A stretch of 53,706 nucleotides of DNA. Origin: Phycisphaeraceae bacterium (GTDB lineage: Bacteria > Planctomycetota > Phycisphaerae > Phycisphaerales > UBA1924). The notes beneath the pieces were generated by a model. That model was not told the origin of the DNA. It did no database searches and saw only the letters and a program-made list of their open reading frames with translations. Made by a program: the position numbers and the translations under genes. Shown one piece after another: positions 2,181 through 10,830 of this stretch (position 1 is the stretch's first letter; each line of letters opens with the position of its first letter). The stretch spans positions 1 through 53,706 of the forward strand of contig JAHCJH010000004.1 of NCBI GenBank assembly GCA_026126345.1, read 5' to 3'.

Positions 2181-2210
2181 GTGTTGCAAAGTGTCGCAAA
2201 GTGGGAGAGA
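2181..2210 (+). promoter_or_regulatory. Three 10-bp direct repeats upstream of mraZ, candidate MraZ operator
   Basis: Three abutting 10-base units can be read: GTGTTGCAAA, GTGTCGCAAA and GTGGGAGAGA. They share GTG at the same phase and the first two differ at one position. Known MraZ operators are runs of TGGGN boxes at 10-bp spacing upstream of mraZ, so phase and place fit, although only the third unit contains TGGGA. The repeats lie 32 bases before the chosen GTG start. Autoregulation by MraZ is an inference. Confidence 0.55.
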
Positions 2211-2241
2211 ATCCCACGCATGTCCCTTGGAGCGACCAGCC

Positions 2242-2712
2242 GTGCTCTTCACCGGGTATTCCGAGCACCAGATCGATCCCAAGCAGCGCTTGGCCATTCC
2301 CGCCAAGTACCGCAACCAATGGGATCCGTCGCGGGACGGCGGGGCGTGGTACTGCGTGCCGTGGCCCGACGGGCATCTTCGGCTCTACACCGAATCGACC
2401 TTCACGGAACTGGCACGCCGGGGCGAAACGTCGCTCACGCCAGGCCAATTGGAGGCGGAACTGGAATCGACGCTGTTCGGCTTTGCCGAGCGGCTGGAGA
2501 TGGACAGCGCCGGGCGGATTGCCTTGCCCAAGCGGCACCTGGAGCTGACCGGGCTCAAGAGCGACGTGGTGGTGGTCGGCGCTCGCGTTCGGCTGGAGGT
2601 GCGCGACCGGGCCGCCTGGCAGAAGCAGTCGGAGGACAGGTTCAAGCAGCTTCCCGGTTTGATCGCGCAGATCGAAGCCTACCGGCGCGGCCACGGAGGG
2701 CCCGCCGCATGA
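2242..2712 (+). CDS. mraZ: MraZ-like transcriptional regulator
   Basis: A DNA-binding protein of the MraZ family, which represses its own promoter and division/cell-wall genes in other bacteria and forms rings of double-AbrB (SpoVT-like) units. From GTG 2242 it is 156 residues. It begins with the family N-terminus MLFTGYSEHQIDPKQRLAIP and carries the second copy MDSAGRIALPKRHLEL about 80 residues later. In the first motif the usual DxKGR reads DPKQR. Start choice: GTG 2242 matches the family N-terminus and has GGAG nine bases upstream; a longer in-frame GTG at 2191 would begin inside the repeat operator and adds non-family residues. No rsmH, ftsL or mur genes follow, so this mraZ stands apart from a division/cell-wall cluster. 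A terminator at 2991-3026 closes the unit. Confidence 0.88.
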   Translation: MLFTGYSEHQIDPKQRLAIPAKYRNQWDPSRDGGAWYCVPWPDGHLRLYTESTFTELARRGETSLTPGQLEAELESTLFGFAERLEMDSAGRIALPKRHLELTGLKSDVVVVGARVRLEVRDRAAWQKQSEDRFKQLPGLIAQIEAYRRGHGGPAA

Positions 2713-3041: not shown

Positions 3042-4823
3042 TCAGGGCGTCGAGCGCGGCGCGCGGTCCTTCCAGATGTCGTACTCGGCCGACAGTTGGG
3101 AGGCGAGCCTGGCGTAGCGCTCCACCTCGGCCGGGTTGGCCAGCAAGTTCCGCCCGTGGAGCTCGGCAAGCACCTGGTACGCCAGGAGCAGGAACTGGGC
3201 GTTGGGCCCGTCGGTGGTCAGGCTCGACACGTACCCGCGAAGGTGCTCGGCGATGGAACGCGCCTCGCCAAGGGGGATGCCGCTGGTGCCCGCCCCGGTC
3301 GCGGCCGCGGCGTTGGCGGCGGCGATGATGCGGTTGGCTCGGGCGGCGGTGTGCAGCAGATCGATGTCGAGCAGCCAGGGGTCCCCGGTCCTGAGCAGGG
3401 CCCGCCACTGCGCGGCGATGACGGAGGCCTCTGGCTCGCTGATGAGGTAGCCCTCGAGCGTGACGGTCCAGAATGTTCGCTCGGTGTCGAGCATGAGGTC
3501 GCGGAGTTTCGAGAGCTGCTCGCCGGTGGTCGCCAGGCGGGCGATACGGTCGATGTCGCCGATGTGGGCGGTCCAGACTCCCTGGGATCGAGCCAGCACG
3601 TCCCGGGCCTGTTCGAGCGTGGGGGGCTCGGCCGTGGAGACACTGACGGGGTTGGCGCGCCGGACCGCGCCGAACACGGCGCGCACCGTATCGCGAGCGG
3701 TCTGCAGGCGAGACTCGGCCGCGGCCGTGCGCTCGCGCTCCAGCAGGAAGCCGATGCGTTGGCGCTCGCGTTCCTGGGCGGATATCAGCGCGGCGTACGC
3801 CAGCCCGGCCAGCGCCAGCGTGGCGACGGCGCCCGCGGCAACGCCCCTGGGGTGGCGGCGGATGATGAGCCGTGCGGTGTGCAGCGCGCCCGGGCGCGTC
3901 CACGCGACCGGGAAGTTGTCGATCCAGAGTTCAAGATCGGCGGCGAACTCGCCGGCCGACGCGTAGCGCTGACGCGGATCGATGGCCAGGGCGCGGGCGC
4001 ATATCCGCGCGAGCGTTCGGTCGACGCCGGCGACCGAGGTGGGAAGCAACGGGGCGCCGGACTTGGCGCCCGCGAGCACCTCGGAGAGCGAGTCGCCCAG
4101 CGGGGCCCTGCCGGTGATCAGCCAGAAGAGCATGGCGCCCAGAGAGAACACGTCGGTGATCGGCGACGTGGGCGCGGGCTCGTCGGCGAGGCGCTCCGGC
4201 GCGGTGAACGCCGGCGTGGCGGCGTGGGTGCCGTCGGCGTCGCCGGCGGTGGGGGAGCGCACCAGCGCGAAGTCCACGATCCGCGGTGCTCCAGAGGCGT
4301 CCAGCAGGATGTTCTGCGGCTTGAGGTCTCCGTGGGAGAGGCCGGCGGAGTGGATGGCCTGCACGCCGCGGGCGACCGAGGCGCACATCTCCGCGGCGGT
4401 CCGGGCGGGGATCCGTCCGTTGCGGCGATCGAGCAGCGCGGTCAGGGTGCCGCCGGGGATGTACTCGTAGACGATGTACGCCTGTCCGTCGGCGGTGACA
4501 TCGCGGTCGAAGACGCGGACGATGGATCGGTGGCTGATCCGCCGTGCCTGGGTGGCTTCATCGGCCAGGCCGCGCCGCGTGTGGCCGGTACGGTCGAACA
4601 CCTTGACCGCGACCATGGCGGGGTGTCCGGGTTCGGAGAGCTGGCGGTCTTCGGCGAGGTAGACGCGTCCGAACGCGCCGGCGCCGATCTGGCGGAGCAG
4701 ACGGTACCTGGGTCGTCCGTCCATTCCAGTGCGGCCGTAGTCGCACGGCATCGGGAACGGAGCGCCGCCGCCGTCAGCTGTGGTCAGGCGGAGGTCTGGT
4801 TTGGCGGGGTGCGAGGAGCTCAT
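3042..4823 (-). CDS. Transmembrane Ser/Thr protein kinase with HGD and DFA motifs
   Basis: A Hanks-type kinase of 593 residues that phosphorylates protein Ser/Thr at the inner membrane. Order: kinase domain about 41-310, one membrane helix about 327-348, then a helical C-terminal part of about 245 residues. Seen: glycine loop IGAGAFGRVYLAE, VAVKVF with K74, catalytic loop HGDLKPQN (H164, G165 in place of Arg, D166, N171), and DFA at 184-186 in place of DFG, followed by TAPE. Asp and Lys needed for ATP/Mg are kept, so activity is possible but regulation may differ. The ATG overlaps the stop of the upstream kinase in ATGA, so translation is probably coupled. It shares the juxtamembrane string AWTRPG with that kinase, which suggests tandem duplication. 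It is the last gene of the sigma-kinase unit. Confidence 0.9.
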   Translation of the reverse strand: MSSSHPAKPDLRLTTADGGGAPFPMPCDYGRTGMDGRPRYRLLRQIGAGAFGRVYLAEDRQLSEPGHPAMVAVKVFDRTGHTRRGLADEATQARRISHRSIVRVFDRDVTADGQAYIVYEYIPGGTLTALLDRRNGRIPARTAAEMCASVARGVQAIHSAGLSHGDLKPQNILLDASGAPRIVDFALVRSPTAGDADGTHAATPAFTAPERLADEPAPTSPITDVFSLGAMLFWLITGRAPLGDSLSEVLAGAKSGAPLLPTSVAGVDRTLARICARALAIDPRQRYASAGEFAADLELWIDNFPVAWTRPGALHTARLIIRRHPRGVAAGAVATLALAGLAYAALISAQERERQRIGFLLERERTAAAESRLQTARDTVRAVFGAVRRANPVSVSTAEPPTLEQARDVLARSQGVWTAHIGDIDRIARLATTGEQLSKLRDLMLDTERTFWTVTLEGYLISEPEASVIAAQWRALLRTGDPWLLDIDLLHTAARANRIIAAANAAAATGAGTSGIPLGEARSIAEHLRGYVSSLTTDGPNAQFLLLAYQVLAELHGRNLLANPAEVERYARLASQLSAEYDIWKDRAPRSTP

Positions 4824-6913
4824 GGCGCGTTCGGCGAATCCGGCGACCACCCTTGAATCGGCTGAACCGGGCGCCGGTGTGAACCGTGTGCGTCCACAGG
4901 CAGGGCCCCGCTGACGATCCGCACCGTTTGCCAGTATTGGACGGCCGCGGGGTCGTCCAGCAACGCCGGGCCGTGCAGCGCTTCCAGGGCCGCCAGGACC
5001 ACGGCGTGGAGGCCTGACCCCGGGGCATCGGCGCCCAGGCGGGACTGAACTCGCGTGAGCTGCTCGCGCACTTCGACGGCCGGGGCCAACAGGGCGACCC
5101 GTGGCGTTGCGGCGCTGAGCGCCGTTAGCGCGTCGACCTTGGCGTGCAGCGCCAGCGCGGTGAGGCCGTCGAGCCAGGGGTCTTCCGGCCCGACGAGTTC
5201 GGACCAGCGCCGGCGGGCGTCTTCGATCATGGGGGTTGCCGTCTTCCAGTCGCCCTCGGCCAGCAGCCAGACCAGGAGCTTGGCCTCCTGCACGCTCCAC
5301 AGCAGCAGCTGCTCGCGACCGGCGCGCCGGCTCAGGTCGATGGTCTGTCTCAGGCTGGCGATCCGCGCCGATCGGTACGCGGCGTTGGCGTCTGCCTCAG
5401 CCAGGAACGGCTGGAGCATCTGGACTTCCAGCGTGATCACCCGGGGAAGTTCGGCTCGAACCGAGAGCGCCGCTTCCCGCTGCCGGGCGACCAGGTCGCT
5501 CTCGCTGCCGAGTTGACGCATCAGCAGCGTGAAGGCGGTGGCGCCGGCGACGAGCGTGAACGACCACACGCCGAACATCAGCAGCGCGACGGGCTGGCGA
5601 CGGGCGACGAGCCGCAGCGATCGCCACGGGCCGGGCCGCGTCCAGGCGATGGGGAATCCGTCCAGCCACGCCGCCAGGTCGTCGGCGAACTGGCCGGCGG
5701 AACCGTATCGAAGCGCCGGGTCGGGTTCGAGCGCCCGGGCGCAGATCCGGACCAGGTCGCGGTCGATGCGCGGGCGGGGCGGGAACTCAGGCGGCGAGCG
5801 GCGGCCGAGCGTGGGGTGGTGCGTCGCGGCGACCTGCTCGGGCGTATCTCCGTTGGGCATCGCTCCGGTGAGCAGCAGGTAGAGAAGCCCGCCGAGGGCG
5901 TACACGTCGCTGGGGGGGCTGAAGGCCGAGGGCTCGGCGCGGAACTGTTCCGGCGAGATGAAGGCGAGGTTGCCGTGCGGGCGACCGGTCGAGCGCGGCG
6001 CGTGGGCGCGCGAGTTGCCCGCTCGCACGGCGATGCCGAAGTCCGCGACCTTGGGGGCGCCGTGGGTCGCCAGCAGGATGTTGCCCGGCTTGAGATCGCA
6101 GTGCACCAGGCCGGCGGCGTGCGCCGCCTGCACGCCGCGGGCGACGCCCAGCATCAACGTCGCGGCCTGACGCGCGGGCATGGGCGGCGGGTGGCGCAGC
6201 AGCCACTCGGCCAGCGATCCGCCGTCGACGTACTCGCAGACGATGAAGTCGTCGCCCTGGTCGCGCCCCGAGTCGAGCACGCGCACCACGTTGGGGTGCT
6301 CGACGCGCCGGGCCTTGGTGGCCTCCTCGGGCACGACGGTGAGCCCCTCGACCGCCGGCAGCACCTTGATGGCGACCGACGCCGGGCTGTCGGGCTCGCT
6401 CAACAGCCGGTCTCGCGCCAGGTACACCTGGCCGTACGCCCCGTAGCCCAGCCGGCTCGTCAGCTCGTACCGCGCGTGCCCGGAAGGCAGGCGCGGGCCG
6501 ATGGCCGAGGGAAGGTCGCGGCTGGCCGGGGCGACGATCCGGTTCTCCAGATCGGTGGTCGAAAGGACCGCGTCGTTCAACGCCGCGGCCTCTTCGATGG
6601 CCCGGCGCAGCGCTGGGTGATCGGCCTGGAGCTGCTGGACGGCCTGGGCCATGGTGGCCCCGAGCTGCACCATCGAAGTGAGCACGACGCTGAGGGCGGC
6701 GTCGAGCGGCTCGGGGCGTCGGGCCAGGTCCTCGACTGCCGCGAGGTAACGGTCGAGACGGACGGGAACACCGACACGGTTGAGGGCGGTACCGTCGTCG
6801 TGGATGGCGTCGGCCAGGAGCGTGTTGCTTTCGAGCGCCGGCGCGAGCCGCCGGCGCAGGGCCGGGTCGTCGTGCGCCGGGTCGGCGGCGGGCGTGCGGG
6901 CGGGGGAGTTCAC
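4820..6913 (-). CDS. Transmembrane Ser/Thr protein kinase with N-terminal helical extension
   Basis: A Hanks-type kinase of 697 residues from GTG 6913. Order: N-terminal helical region 1-145, kinase domain about 150-425, membrane helix about 441-464, and a helical C-terminal part of about 230 residues. Seen: glycine loop LGYGAYGQVYLARD, AIKV with K183, catalytic loop HCDLKPGN (Cys in place of Arg of HRD), intact DFG at 291-293 and SPE instead of APE. The start is fixed by the GTGA overlap with the stop of the sigma gene. Kinases lacking the HRD Arg often need no activation-loop phosphorylation; that is family knowledge, not shown here. Its gene pairs with the downstream kinase and the sigma factor, so a phosphorylation link to sigma control is likely but inferred. 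Confidence 0.9.
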   Translation of the reverse strand: MNSPARTPAADPAHDDPALRRRLAPALESNTLLADAIHDDGTALNRVGVPVRLDRYLAAVEDLARRPEPLDAALSVVLTSMVQLGATMAQAVQQLQADHPALRRAIEEAAALNDAVLSTTDLENRIVAPASRDLPSAIGPRLPSGHARYELTSRLGYGAYGQVYLARDRLLSEPDSPASVAIKVLPAVEGLTVVPEEATKARRVEHPNVVRVLDSGRDQGDDFIVCEYVDGGSLAEWLLRHPPPMPARQAATLMLGVARGVQAAHAAGLVHCDLKPGNILLATHGAPKVADFGIAVRAGNSRAHAPRSTGRPHGNLAFISPEQFRAEPSAFSPPSDVYALGGLLYLLLTGAMPNGDTPEQVAATHHPTLGRRSPPEFPPRPRIDRDLVRICARALEPDPALRYGSAGQFADDLAAWLDGFPIAWTRPGPWRSLRLVARRQPVALLMFGVWSFTLVAGATAFTLLMRQLGSESDLVARQREAALSVRAELPRVITLEVQMLQPFLAEADANAAYRSARIASLRQTIDLSRRAGREQLLLWSVQEAKLLVWLLAEGDWKTATPMIEDARRRWSELVGPEDPWLDGLTALALHAKVDALTALSAATPRVALLAPAVEVREQLTRVQSRLGADAPGSGLHAVVLAALEALHGPALLDDPAAVQYWQTVRIVSGALPVDAHGSHRRPVQPIQGWSPDSPNAP

Positions 6914-7527
6914 TGCGGGGACTCGAATCGGACCTTGAGCCGTTCGCGGATGCCCTGCCAGCGTTTGCGCACGGCGGTGGCGGCCAGGCCGACTTCCGCG
7001 CCGATCGCGGTGTGCGGCAGATCCTTGAGCCACAGGCAGAGGATCTGCCGGTCGATGGGGTCGCGCAGGAAATTGATCGCGGCGTCAAGTTCGATCACGG
7101 CGCCGTCTTCCCGGTCGCGGTCCGCCGCTTCGAGCCGTTCGGCCAGACGATGGGCCAGCGGGCCGTCGTCGCCCTCGGCGATCCGGAGCCGCCGGATGAC
7201 GCGTGCCTTGTCGATCAGCGCGTTGTCGGAGATGGTGTGAAGCAGCGACCAGAACTGCGGCTCGGTTTCCGCCCGGACGCGCCCTTCGCGAACGAACCCG
7301 TCGAGCCGGCGAGCGACGGTGGACAGGATGTCCTGGGAATCGAACAGCCGCTGCATGGGCTTGGAGAGTTTGGAGCGGACACGACGCCGCAAGCGATCAC
7401 CGTACCGTGCGACGAATTCCGCGGCGGCGTGACGGTCTCCCCCGCGCATGCGGGCGAGCAGGTCGGCGACCGGGGGCGCAGCGGTCTGGCCGTCACGGGC
7501 ACCGGGTTGAGCTTCGCTCACGCACAT
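6910..7527 (-). CDS. ECF-like sigma-70 family RNA polymerase sigma factor
   Basis: A 205-residue sigma factor with regions 2 and 4 only. Seen: region 2-like FDSQDILSTVARRLDGFV and the FWSLLHTISDNALIDKARV block; a C-terminal helix-turn-helix LPHTAIGAEVGLAATAVRKR that would read the -35 element. Planctomycete genomes carry many such sigma factors next to Ser/Thr kinases, and this arrangement is present here: the stop overlaps the GTG of the first kinase. The ATG at 7527 is supported by GAGGA eight bases upstream. No anti-sigma factor gene is present, so kinase-based control is the likely alternative (inference). Confidence 0.87.
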   Translation of the reverse strand: MCVSEAQPGARDGQTAAPPVADLLARMRGGDRHAAAEFVARYGDRLRRRVRSKLSKPMQRLFDSQDILSTVARRLDGFVREGRVRAETEPQFWSLLHTISDNALIDKARVIRRLRIAEGDDGPLAHRLAERLEAADRDREDGAVIELDAAINFLRDPIDRQILCLWLKDLPHTAIGAEVGLAATAVRKRWQGIRERLKVRFESPQ

Positions 7528-7670
7528 CGATCGGGTCCTCGTGCCGAGGTCGACCCCGGGCTCGGCAGGCCGCCCGGCCCGGACGCTGGTGCGACCAAAG
7601 TGTAACGCCGAGTGGGCGGGTTCGGTTCGCAGGGGCCGGGCGGAGTCCCCCGGACGGGGCGGTGCGCGGC

Positions 7671-8582
7671 TCAGCGGTCGGCGAGCGCTGCGAGCACTTC
7701 GCGGCCGAATTCATCGCCTCGGTTCTCGGCCCATTGCGCCGCCGTCCAGCCGCGACGGTCCTTGGCCTGACGGTTGGCGCCGGCCTTGAGCAGGGCTCCG
7801 ACGGCGGCACGGTCGCCACGCTCGGCGGCTCGCATCAGCGGGGTGACGCCTTCGGCGTCGGCGAGATCGACGCGGGCGCCCTTGCGGATGAGCAGCTCGA
7901 TGACCTTGATGTCGGCCGAGCCGGCGGCGATGTTGAGGGCGGTGTTGCTGTCGGCGTCGGCGGCATCGATGTTGGCGCCGGCATCGAGCAGTCGCTCGAG
8001 CTTGGCGACGTCGCCGGCGCGGGCGGCGAGCATGAGGGCCGTCTGGCGGTACTTGTTGCGGCTTTCGAGGTCGGCGCCGGCGGTGATGATCTCAGCAAGA
8101 ACGTCGGCCGAGCCGCGGGCGGCGGCGAGGATGAGGGCGTTCCAGTTGTCTTCGGCGCGGGCGTTGACGCGTGCGCCGGCCTCGACGAGCATGCGGACGA
8201 TCTCCGGCCGGTCGCCCATGCCTGCGTAGATGAGCGCGGTGCGGCCGTCTTCCGCGGCGGCGTTGACGTTGGCCTTCGCGTCGATGAGCGCTTTGACGGC
8301 GGCGGTTCGCCCGGCGCGCGCGGCGTACATCAGGGCGGTCATGCCGCGCTCGGGTCCGGCGGCCTGTCGTGCGTTGACGTCGACACCGGCTGCGATCTCA
8401 CGCCGGAGTGCCGGCAGGTCGTCGGCTTCAGCGATGGCGAAGATCGCCGCCGCGCCGCGCGATGGGTCGGCGTTGCTCGGCGTGGTGGCGGCGACGAGGA
8501 GGTAGGTGGCGTAGACGAGCCCGCCGCCGACGACGATCAGCGCGAACAAACGGGCGGCGCGGACGGCGGGTGACGTGACCAT
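7671..8582 (-). CDS. Membrane-anchored ankyrin repeat protein
   Basis: A 303-residue protein with one N-terminal membrane helix (about 11-33, LFALIVVGGGLVYATYLLVA) and then six clear 33-residue ankyrin repeats with partial caps at each end. Repeats show the TALMYAARAG and LLDAGANIDAADAD patterns. Ankyrin repeats bind other proteins; the partner is unknown. With a signal-anchor start the repeats would face the periplasm. ATG 8582 has AAGGAG eight bases upstream. It lies 143 bases upstream of the sigma factor on the same strand and could share its transcript. Confidence 0.87.
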   Translation of the reverse strand: MVTSPAVRAARLFALIVVGGGLVYATYLLVAATTPSNADPSRGAAAIFAIAEADDLPALRREIAAGVDVNARQAAGPERGMTALMYAARAGRTAAVKALIDAKANVNAAAEDGRTALIYAGMGDRPEIVRMLVEAGARVNARAEDNWNALILAAARGSADVLAEIITAGADLESRNKYRQTALMLAARAGDVAKLERLLDAGANIDAADADSNTALNIAAGSADIKVIELLIRKGARVDLADAEGVTPLMRAAERGDRAAVGALLKAGANRQAKDRRGWTAAQWAENRGDEFGREVLAALADR

Positions 8583-8654: not shown

Positions 8655-10727
8655 TCAATCCTCTTCGGCGCGGGGCTTGTACGCGGCGATGACGGCGGCC
8701 TGCACGGTGGCGGGGGTGCGCTCGTCGTGGGAGTAGTCCATGGAGTACGAGCCCTGGCCGCCGGTCATGCTCTTGAGCTCGTTGGAGTAATTCTGGAGCT
8801 CTGAGAGCGGGGCGGTGGCGCGGACGATGCAGATGTCTGACCCCAGAACGTCGGTGGACTGCACGCGTCCGCGCTTGCCGGACAGGTCGGCGGTGATGTC
8901 GCCGAGGTAGCGGCTGGGCGCCGTGATCTCGACGGTGACGAACGGCTCGAGCAACGCGGGCCTGGCCTTGCTGACGGCGTCGATGAACGCTTTCTTGCCG
9001 GCGGCGATGAACGCGACTTCCTTGGAGTCCACGGCGTGGTACTTGCCGTCGTACACCTCGACGCGAACACCGACCATGGGGTACCCGGCGACGGCGCCGC
9101 TGGTGAGCACCTGGCGAACGCCCTTCTCGATCGCGGGCATGAACTGGCGCGGGATCGTGCCGCCCACCGTCGCGTTCTCGAATTCGAAGCCCTCGGGGTG
9201 GTCCGGCGGCAGGGGGGCGACGCGCAGGTAGACCTCGCCGAACTGCCCGGCGCCGCCCGTCTGCTTCTTGTGGCGGTGGTGCCCGTCGGCACGCCCGGTG
9301 ATCGTTTCCTTGTACGCGACCTTGGGCGGGTGCGTGATCAGCTCGATGCCGAACCGGGTCTTGAGCTTCTCCATCGCGATACGCAGGTGCAGCTCGCCCA
9401 GCCCGCGCAACACGGTCTGCCCGGTCGCGGCCACGCGCTCCATCTGGAAGCACGGGTCCTCCTCGCTCATCTTGTGGATGGCGCCGGAGAACTTGGTTTC
9501 GTCGGCGTGGTTCTTCAGTTCCACGGCGACGCCGTAGAGCGGCTTGGGCAACGGCAGCTTCGGAGCCAGCAGGTGGATCGCGGCGTCGGCGTGGAGGATG
9601 GAGTTGAACTTGAGCTCGTCGACCTTGGGCACGCAGCCGATGTCCCCGGCGACGACGTGGTCGACCTCCTGGTGCTCCTTGCCGCGGATGCGCATGAGGT
9701 GGTTGAGCCGCACGGGCTTGCGGCTCTCACCGTGGAGCAGCTCGCTCTTGGTGCGCACGACGCCCTGCAGGACGCGGAACACGGCCAGTTTGCCGACGAA
9801 CGGGTCGTGGATGATCTTGAAGACGTGTGCGACGGCGGGCTTGTCGGCCGAGGCGGCGTCGGGCTCGAAGGCGCTGACGTGCCCGTCCTCGTGGCGCACC
9901 TGAAGGTGGGGAGGGCCGGCCTCCAGGGGGCTGGGGCACTGGCCTGCGATGATGTGCAGCAGGTCTTCCACGCCCGCACCGGTGCGGGCCGAGCAGAAGC
10001 ACACCGGGATCAGGTGGCCGGCGCGCAGCGCCGCTTCCATGGCCTTGTGCACCTTGGCCGGGTCGAGCTTGTCACCCTTCTCGAAATACTCGCCGGTGAG
10101 CTCTTCGTCCATCTCGACGATCTGCTCGTAGACGTGCGTGTGGGCCGCCTCGACCGACATGATGGCCGGCTCGGCGCCCTTCTCGGCGTGGTCGTGATCG
10201 AACACGTCGATCACGTCGGTGTTGTTCCTGATGGGCAGATTGATCGGGATGCACTCGTTGCCGAACGCCTGGTGGATCTGGTCCAGAAGCCCGGCAAGGT
10301 CCACGCCTTCGTGATCGATCTTGTTGACGATGATCAGGCGTGGCACGCCCAGTTCCGCCGCGATGGTCATGATGCGGCGGGTGGTGACCTGGATGCCCGC
10401 ATAGGCGTCGATGACGACGGCGATGCACTCGGCGGCGGGGAGCACGCCGATCGACTGGCCCAGGAAATCGGCCGACCCGGGGGTGTCGATCAGATTGATG
10501 TGGCGGCCTTCGAAGGGGAGGTGGACGACCTTGCTGGTGAGGCTGTGGCCGTGGGCCTTTTCCTCGGGCTCGTAGTCGCAGACCGTGTTCTTCTCCTGCA
10601 CCGAGCCCATCTTGGGGATGACCTTGGCGTGGGCCAGAAGCCGCTCGATGAGCGACGTCTTGCCGGACAGGCCGTGCCCGGTGATCACCACGTTGCGGAT
10701 GTCGGCGGTCTTGACGGCTTGGGCCAT
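8655..10727 (-). CDS. Elongation factor G-like GTPase (EF-G2 type)
   Basis: A 690-residue translational GTPase with the full EF-G layout. Seen: G1 GHGLSGKT (17-24), G3 DTPGSADF (81-88), G4 NKID (135-138), and later EF-G-like domains with LRGLGELHLRIAMEKL and a domain IV/V segment. It differs from housekeeping EF-G: G1 lacks the usual GHIDAGKTT, switch I lacks the ERGITI string, and the His that follows DTPG is Ser. This pattern fits the EF-G2/EF-G-like group, whose cellular role is poorly defined and which often lacks normal translocation activity. The start ATG 10727 has GGAG nine bases upstream; an earlier in-frame ATG at 10811 adds unrelated residues. Confidence 0.87.
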   Translation of the reverse strand: MAQAVKTADIRNVVITGHGLSGKTSLIERLLAHAKVIPKMGSVQEKNTVCDYEPEEKAHGHSLTSKVVHLPFEGRHINLIDTPGSADFLGQSIGVLPAAECIAVVIDAYAGIQVTTRRIMTIAAELGVPRLIIVNKIDHEGVDLAGLLDQIHQAFGNECIPINLPIRNNTDVIDVFDHDHAEKGAEPAIMSVEAAHTHVYEQIVEMDEELTGEYFEKGDKLDPAKVHKAMEAALRAGHLIPVCFCSARTGAGVEDLLHIIAGQCPSPLEAGPPHLQVRHEDGHVSAFEPDAASADKPAVAHVFKIIHDPFVGKLAVFRVLQGVVRTKSELLHGESRKPVRLNHLMRIRGKEHQEVDHVVAGDIGCVPKVDELKFNSILHADAAIHLLAPKLPLPKPLYGVAVELKNHADETKFSGAIHKMSEEDPCFQMERVAATGQTVLRGLGELHLRIAMEKLKTRFGIELITHPPKVAYKETITGRADGHHRHKKQTGGAGQFGEVYLRVAPLPPDHPEGFEFENATVGGTIPRQFMPAIEKGVRQVLTSGAVAGYPMVGVRVEVYDGKYHAVDSKEVAFIAAGKKAFIDAVSKARPALLEPFVTVEITAPSRYLGDITADLSGKRGRVQSTDVLGSDICIVRATAPLSELQNYSNELKSMTGGQGSYSMDYSHDERTPATVQAAVIAAYKPRAEED

Positions 10728-10807
10728 GGTCGGGCACTCCGAGTTGACGGCCGCCGGCGCGGGCCGGGGACCGACTCGGAGTGTACCAGCCGATGACGAA
10801 ATGTGAA

Positions 10808-10830
10808 CCACCCGGCCCTGGGCCGGGTGG
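10808..10830 (-). terminator. Probable terminator after the 146-residue protein gene
   Basis: A perfect 10-bp stem (CCACCCGGCC with GGCCGGGTGG) and a 3-base loop. On the minus strand it is followed by TTCACATTT, a weak T-rich tail. It lies 27 bases beyond the stop of the minus-strand gene at 10858 and upstream of the EF-G2-like gene. Confidence 0.55.

Follow-up and report, generated by a model that had tools for sequence, protein, structure and literature searches.

An ECF-like sigma factor and kinase gene pair conserved in Planctomycetota, with a second, diverged kinase in a Phycisphaeraceae bacterium

Three genes in a row on the minus strand of a Phycisphaeraceae bacterium encode an ECF-like sigma factor and two membrane kinases, here K1 and K2. 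Based on sequence comparison, they could be considered as a kinase-regulated ECF sigma system (probability about 0.6), in which K1 would phosphorylate and activate the sigma factor, K2 would act on or with K1, and the ankyrin-repeat gene upstream would be a mere neighbour. The window, that is, the whole analysed stretch of 53,706 nucleotides, is contig C188 of a genome of 3.0 Mb in 253 contigs, which is 86.5% complete. The minus-strand order is EF-G, ankyrin protein, sigma factor, K1 and K2, followed by the convergent mraZ (Table 1). An earlier note on this DNA described the ankyrin membrane protein, sigma factor, kinase and kinase as a single signalling unit; its gene order and coordinates are correct, as are its two stop/start junctions, GTGA at 6913-6910 (sigma/K1) and ATGA at 4823-4820 (K1/K2). 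It also listed no anti-sigma factor gene, and in the window none is seen between or beside the sigma factor and kinase genes. No consensus sigma-70 promoter is found in the region, and there is no Rfam match to a known RNA element. mraZ stands alone in the window, with no same-strand cell-division gene after it in this neighbourhood.

Table 1. Positions of the genes and sequence elements discussed, in window coordinates.
Feature	Coordinates	Strand	Evidence or remark
EF-G-like gene	8655..10811	-	context; paired with the ankyrin gene in relatives
Membrane-anchored ankyrin-repeat gene	7671..8582	-	PF12796, 167 bits; conserved EF-G/ankyrin pair
ECF-like (group 4) sigma factor gene, kinase-linked	6910..7527	-	PF07638 and 40 related loci with a kinase directly downstream
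Sigma region 2.2, residues 59-70, QRLFDSQDILST	7318..7353	-	41-sigma alignment and own-genome controls
GTGA stop/start overlap, sigma to K1	6910..6913	-	sequence; recurs in relatives
K1: helical N-terminal domain, Ser/Thr kinase domain, one predicted transmembrane segment, TPR-like domain at the C terminus	4820..6913	-	
K1 N-terminal domain, core of ~120 aa, predicted helical bundle	6470..6913	-	
ATGA stop/start overlap, K1 to K2	4820..4823	-	sequence
K2: diverged K1 paralogue without the N-terminal helical domain, one predicted transmembrane segment, homologue of the TPR-like K1 domain at the C terminus	3042..4823	-	
K2 DFG-motif region, VDFALV (DFG to DFA)	4260..4277	-	
mraZ	2191..2712		convergent to K2

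With K2 as the query against 163 genomes of the family, relatives are found in 42 genomes, and 40 related loci were fetched and examined for gene order. In every one of these loci, the gene immediately before the kinase encodes a sigma factor of the same clade. The two genes overlap or are at most 4 bp apart in 35 of the 40, and the 4-base overlap itself is seen in 20, which indicates that the overlap is not due to chance. In a scan of named genomes with a tight sigma alignment, 22 of 23 loci have the sigma-then-kinase order, so the pairing assumed in the earlier note is present in named Phycisphaerales and other Planctomycetota as well. Close homologues are from metagenome-assembled genomes (MAGs) of Phycisphaerales and other Planctomycetota. 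Judged from this synteny, the sigma factor and K1 are an old, conserved pair. The adjacent Ser/Thr kinase gene, the lack of an anti-sigma gene beside the pair in the window and the conservation in relatives are the features of a kinase-linked ECF sigma factor.

The strong PF07638 sigma factors of the family are mostly followed by a kinase gene too, which makes sigma-kinase pairing ordinary in this family. The genome of the window carries a second sigma-kinase pair of this kind (L001, G000:C70), with the same order of sigma and then kinase and an ECF43-like region 2.2 (QPTALVHE/EPTALVHE). The region 2.2 of such strong PF07638 sigma factors (QPTALVHE in L001) differs from that of the window sigma factor, RLFDSQDILST. 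Another arrangement is seen at L102 (G230, 3342-7201), where one kinase gene has a sigma gene upstream on the same strand and a convergent sigma gene behind it, both of the present clade. L210 likewise has one kinase between two sigma genes of the clade. These loci are the mirror image of the one sigma factor and two kinases of the window.

Upstream of the sigma gene, 17 of 48 relatives contain the element GGCG-N16-TGTGA, where 0.5 occurrences are expected. It is possibly an autoregulatory promoter of the sigma-kinase genes. A fuller form, GAGGCG-N16-TGTGA[C/G], with nearly fixed spacing, is seen for example at G033:C1:1775009-1775036 and G182:C26:24407-24434. Genome-wide matches to the element are at chance level, and no regulon is claimed for that reason. 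The element is not found upstream of the sigma gene in the window or in G157. In the window, the sigma-kinase genes may thus be expressed from a different promoter or by read-through from the ankyrin gene.

The sigma factor matches PF07638 with 44.1 bits against a cut-off of 21.1 (residues 20-200 of 205), and its matches to solved ECF sigma factors are weak. It consists of sigma2 and sigma4 domains only, with Sigma70_ECF above the cut-off, which places it among the ECF (group 4) sigma factors. According to PMC13147305 and PMC8999054, region 2.2 of canonical ECF sigma factors reads DxxDxxQE, and its acids contact the polymerase clamp. The favoured register pairs Q65-[D/E]66 with QE and also brings two conserved anchors into line, Leu at Q+10 and Phe/Tyr at Q+13. 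It is backed by one PDB match and by comparing profiles with those of canonical ECFs; other registers result from a second PDB match and when strong PF07638 sigma factors are used for the comparison. In one alternative register, DxxD is retained and QE is replaced by ST; this was the first reading, and it was dropped after the profile comparison and in view of the anchors at Q+10 and Q+13.

In the favoured register, the positions of the DAED acids are mostly RR[LV]F in the clade and QRLF in the window. Position 4 is acidic in none of the 41 aligned sigma factors, and 39 of them have no acid at position 1, 3 or 4. Position 3 is L/V/I in 36 sequences and T in none. Ser or Thr is conserved at position 6 (40/41) and position 12 (41/41), Ser at position 11 (36/41), and an acid at position 8 (D/E, 41/41). 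In contrast, all six other ECF-like sigma factors of the same genome that were compared, which have no kinase neighbour, have D at position 4. Asp63 may partially substitute for the lost acids. The missing acids together with Ser/Thr at new positions, unlike these own-genome controls, look like a second route to a charge-deficient, kinase-dependent sigma factor, in a region 2.2 whose register is not fully certain.

The first route is that of ECF43. Its sigma factors have no DAED acids, and phosphorylation of a Thr in region 2.2 switches them on (PMC8999054, PMC13147305). In the ECF43 pairs EcfP-PknT of Vibrio parahaemolyticus and EcfK-PknS of Xanthomonas citri, as in the window, the ECF sigma gene adjoins a gene for a membrane Hanks-type kinase and no anti-sigma is present. 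In the favoured register, the absence of the DAED acids and the presence of conserved Ser/Thr in region 2.2 are also shared. The Ser/Thr residues, however, are at canonical positions 6, 11 and 12, whereas ECF43 has its phosphorylated Thr at position 3 in a QTTA/STTA-type motif, a motif that the present clade does not have. Unlike the ECF43 pairs, the window also has the N-terminal helical domain of K1 and a second kinase. Further kinase-linked groups in planctomycetes are ECF59, ECF61, ECF62 and ECF217, in which ECF genes likewise lie beside Ser/Thr kinase genes and control by phosphorylation is proposed; the available text of PMC8999054 mentions no two-kinase member among them. The kind of system, a sigma-kinase pair, is already known, and what is new here is the extra diverged kinase and the distinct region 2.2.

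K1 is a Hanks-type kinase (PF00069, 1.5e-36) in which the catalytic Lys, HxD, Asn and DFG are all present. More specific identities suggested by PADLOC and NCBIfam kinase matches amount to generic kinase-domain similarity and were dropped. The ~120 residues before the kinase domain are conserved and confidently predicted to form a helical bundle (mean pLDDT 81.8, core mostly >90), for which neither a Pfam match nor a sequence-level PDB match is found. Known folds were considered for this domain, but Foldseek gives no match at E <=0.001, and VIA-align scores are only middling and mostly to designed helical proteins. In a search of 61 genomes, all 13 matches to the domain at E <=1e-13 are in kinases adjacent to a sigma gene. 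Its near confinement to sigma-linked kinases makes it a candidate sigma-docking domain, and it probably docks the sigma factor. The domain after the transmembrane segment is TPR-like; planctomycete kinases commonly carry TPR or WD40 domains on their outer side (PMC11032199).

K2 (PF00069, 9.7e-37) shares 35% identity with K1 across 561 aa. The earlier note regarded a sigma factor with two tandem kinases as uncommon, and indeed none of the other loci examined (40 related and 22 named) has a second kinase of the clade behind the first. K2 is a diverged paralogue of K1, and the phylogeny does not suggest a plain recent copy. K1 falls with the G157 kinase (94/90). K2 groups with the kinase of G110 in both trees (82/95; SH-aLRT 80), and this could mean that K2 did not arise by tandem duplication of K1: it would be either an acquired kinase or what is left of a second sigma-kinase unit, its original sigma partner having been lost. 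Such an origin is a serious alternative, to which we give a little less than an even chance, because K2 is on a long branch, its kinase region has its highest identity (46%) to K1, and a K1+K2 clade, as expected for a recent tandem duplicate, is neither favoured nor rejected (AU p 0.33). The long branch, the change of DFG to DFA, the shorter activation segment and the lack of the K1-type N-terminal domain would also suit a catalytically impaired kinase that serves K1 as a decoy or allosteric partner. We consider this somewhat unlikely: K2 retains the catalytic Lys, the HxD Asp, the Asn and the metal-binding DFG Asp, and a few of the clade's single kinases that are linked to a sigma factor also have another residue in place of the DFG glycine (DFD, DFS), indicating that its loss may be tolerated. 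K2 could still be inactive, given DFA, or act elsewhere.

The other alternative is that the ankyrin protein, the sigma factor and both kinases form one four-component operon, with the ankyrin protein as a sensor or scaffold, as suggested in the earlier note. The four genes are on the same strand, the order EF-G, ankyrin, sigma and kinase recurs in G157 and only there, and in neither of these two loci is the promoter element detectable before the sigma gene, so that read-through could operate. Nevertheless, synteny makes this operon very improbable. Apart from the window and G157, 18 relatives have the ankyrin orthologue (39-54% identity) behind EF-G, with the sigma-kinase pair elsewhere or missing. 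The ankyrin gene was rejected as a component of the unit on this ground. The 18 relatives are L109, L111-L115, L117, L120-L122, L124-L130 and L132, often with mraZ on the other side. The ankyrin protein has a hydrophobic stretch near its N terminus (residues 10-30). Of the 163 family genomes, 47 contain an orthologue of it, many of them without a sigma-kinase pair, and genomes with both mostly have them on different contigs or far apart. L111, L114 and L115 have the EF-G, ankyrin and mraZ block uninterrupted by sigma-kinase genes, although G095 and G199 carry sigma-kinase pairs at other places. Most parsimoniously, an EF-G/ankyrin/mraZ neighbourhood already existed, and the sigma-kinase unit now lies within it. 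In the window itself, 143 bp separate the ankyrin and sigma genes, which limits tight coupling to the sigma factor, K1 and K2. The operon model thus holds for the sigma factor and K1 and is plausible for K2, but the ankyrin gene does not belong in it as a conserved component.

Under the preferred reading of a kinase-regulated sigma factor, K1 would have its kinase domain inside the cell and its TPR-like domain probably outside, where it would sense a signal. With the sigma factor held by the N-terminal domain, K1 would phosphorylate it at one or more of the conserved Ser/Thr residues within or beside the helix that binds RNA polymerase, the candidates being Ser64, Ser69 and Thr70. The phosphate would supply the missing negative charge of region 2.2, and the sigma factor could then bind core polymerase. 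K2 is presumably made in step with K1 by coupled translation through the ATGA overlap. Because it has no N-terminal domain, K2 most likely does not act directly on the sigma factor. It would rather act on or with K1, as a second sensor input, a heterodimer partner or a trans-regulator. It can be speculated further that the clade is a distinct class of phosphorylation-switched sigma factors in Phycisphaerae, in which an acid-less polymerase-binding helix is charged at Ser64/Ser69/Thr70 by a kinase docked through a private helical domain, and that the present locus, to which this lineage would have added a translationally coupled second kinase, is a two-kinase, two-input switch. In this full form the proposal is unlikely.

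In the parts of the literature that were available, direct control of a sigma factor by phosphorylation is shown for the ECF43 group alone. The present clade would be a second, sequence-distinct set, for which the same principle predicts the residues named above and of which dozens of natural variants exist. With its two kinases, the present locus would illustrate how duplication or capture gives a sigma-kinase pair a second input.
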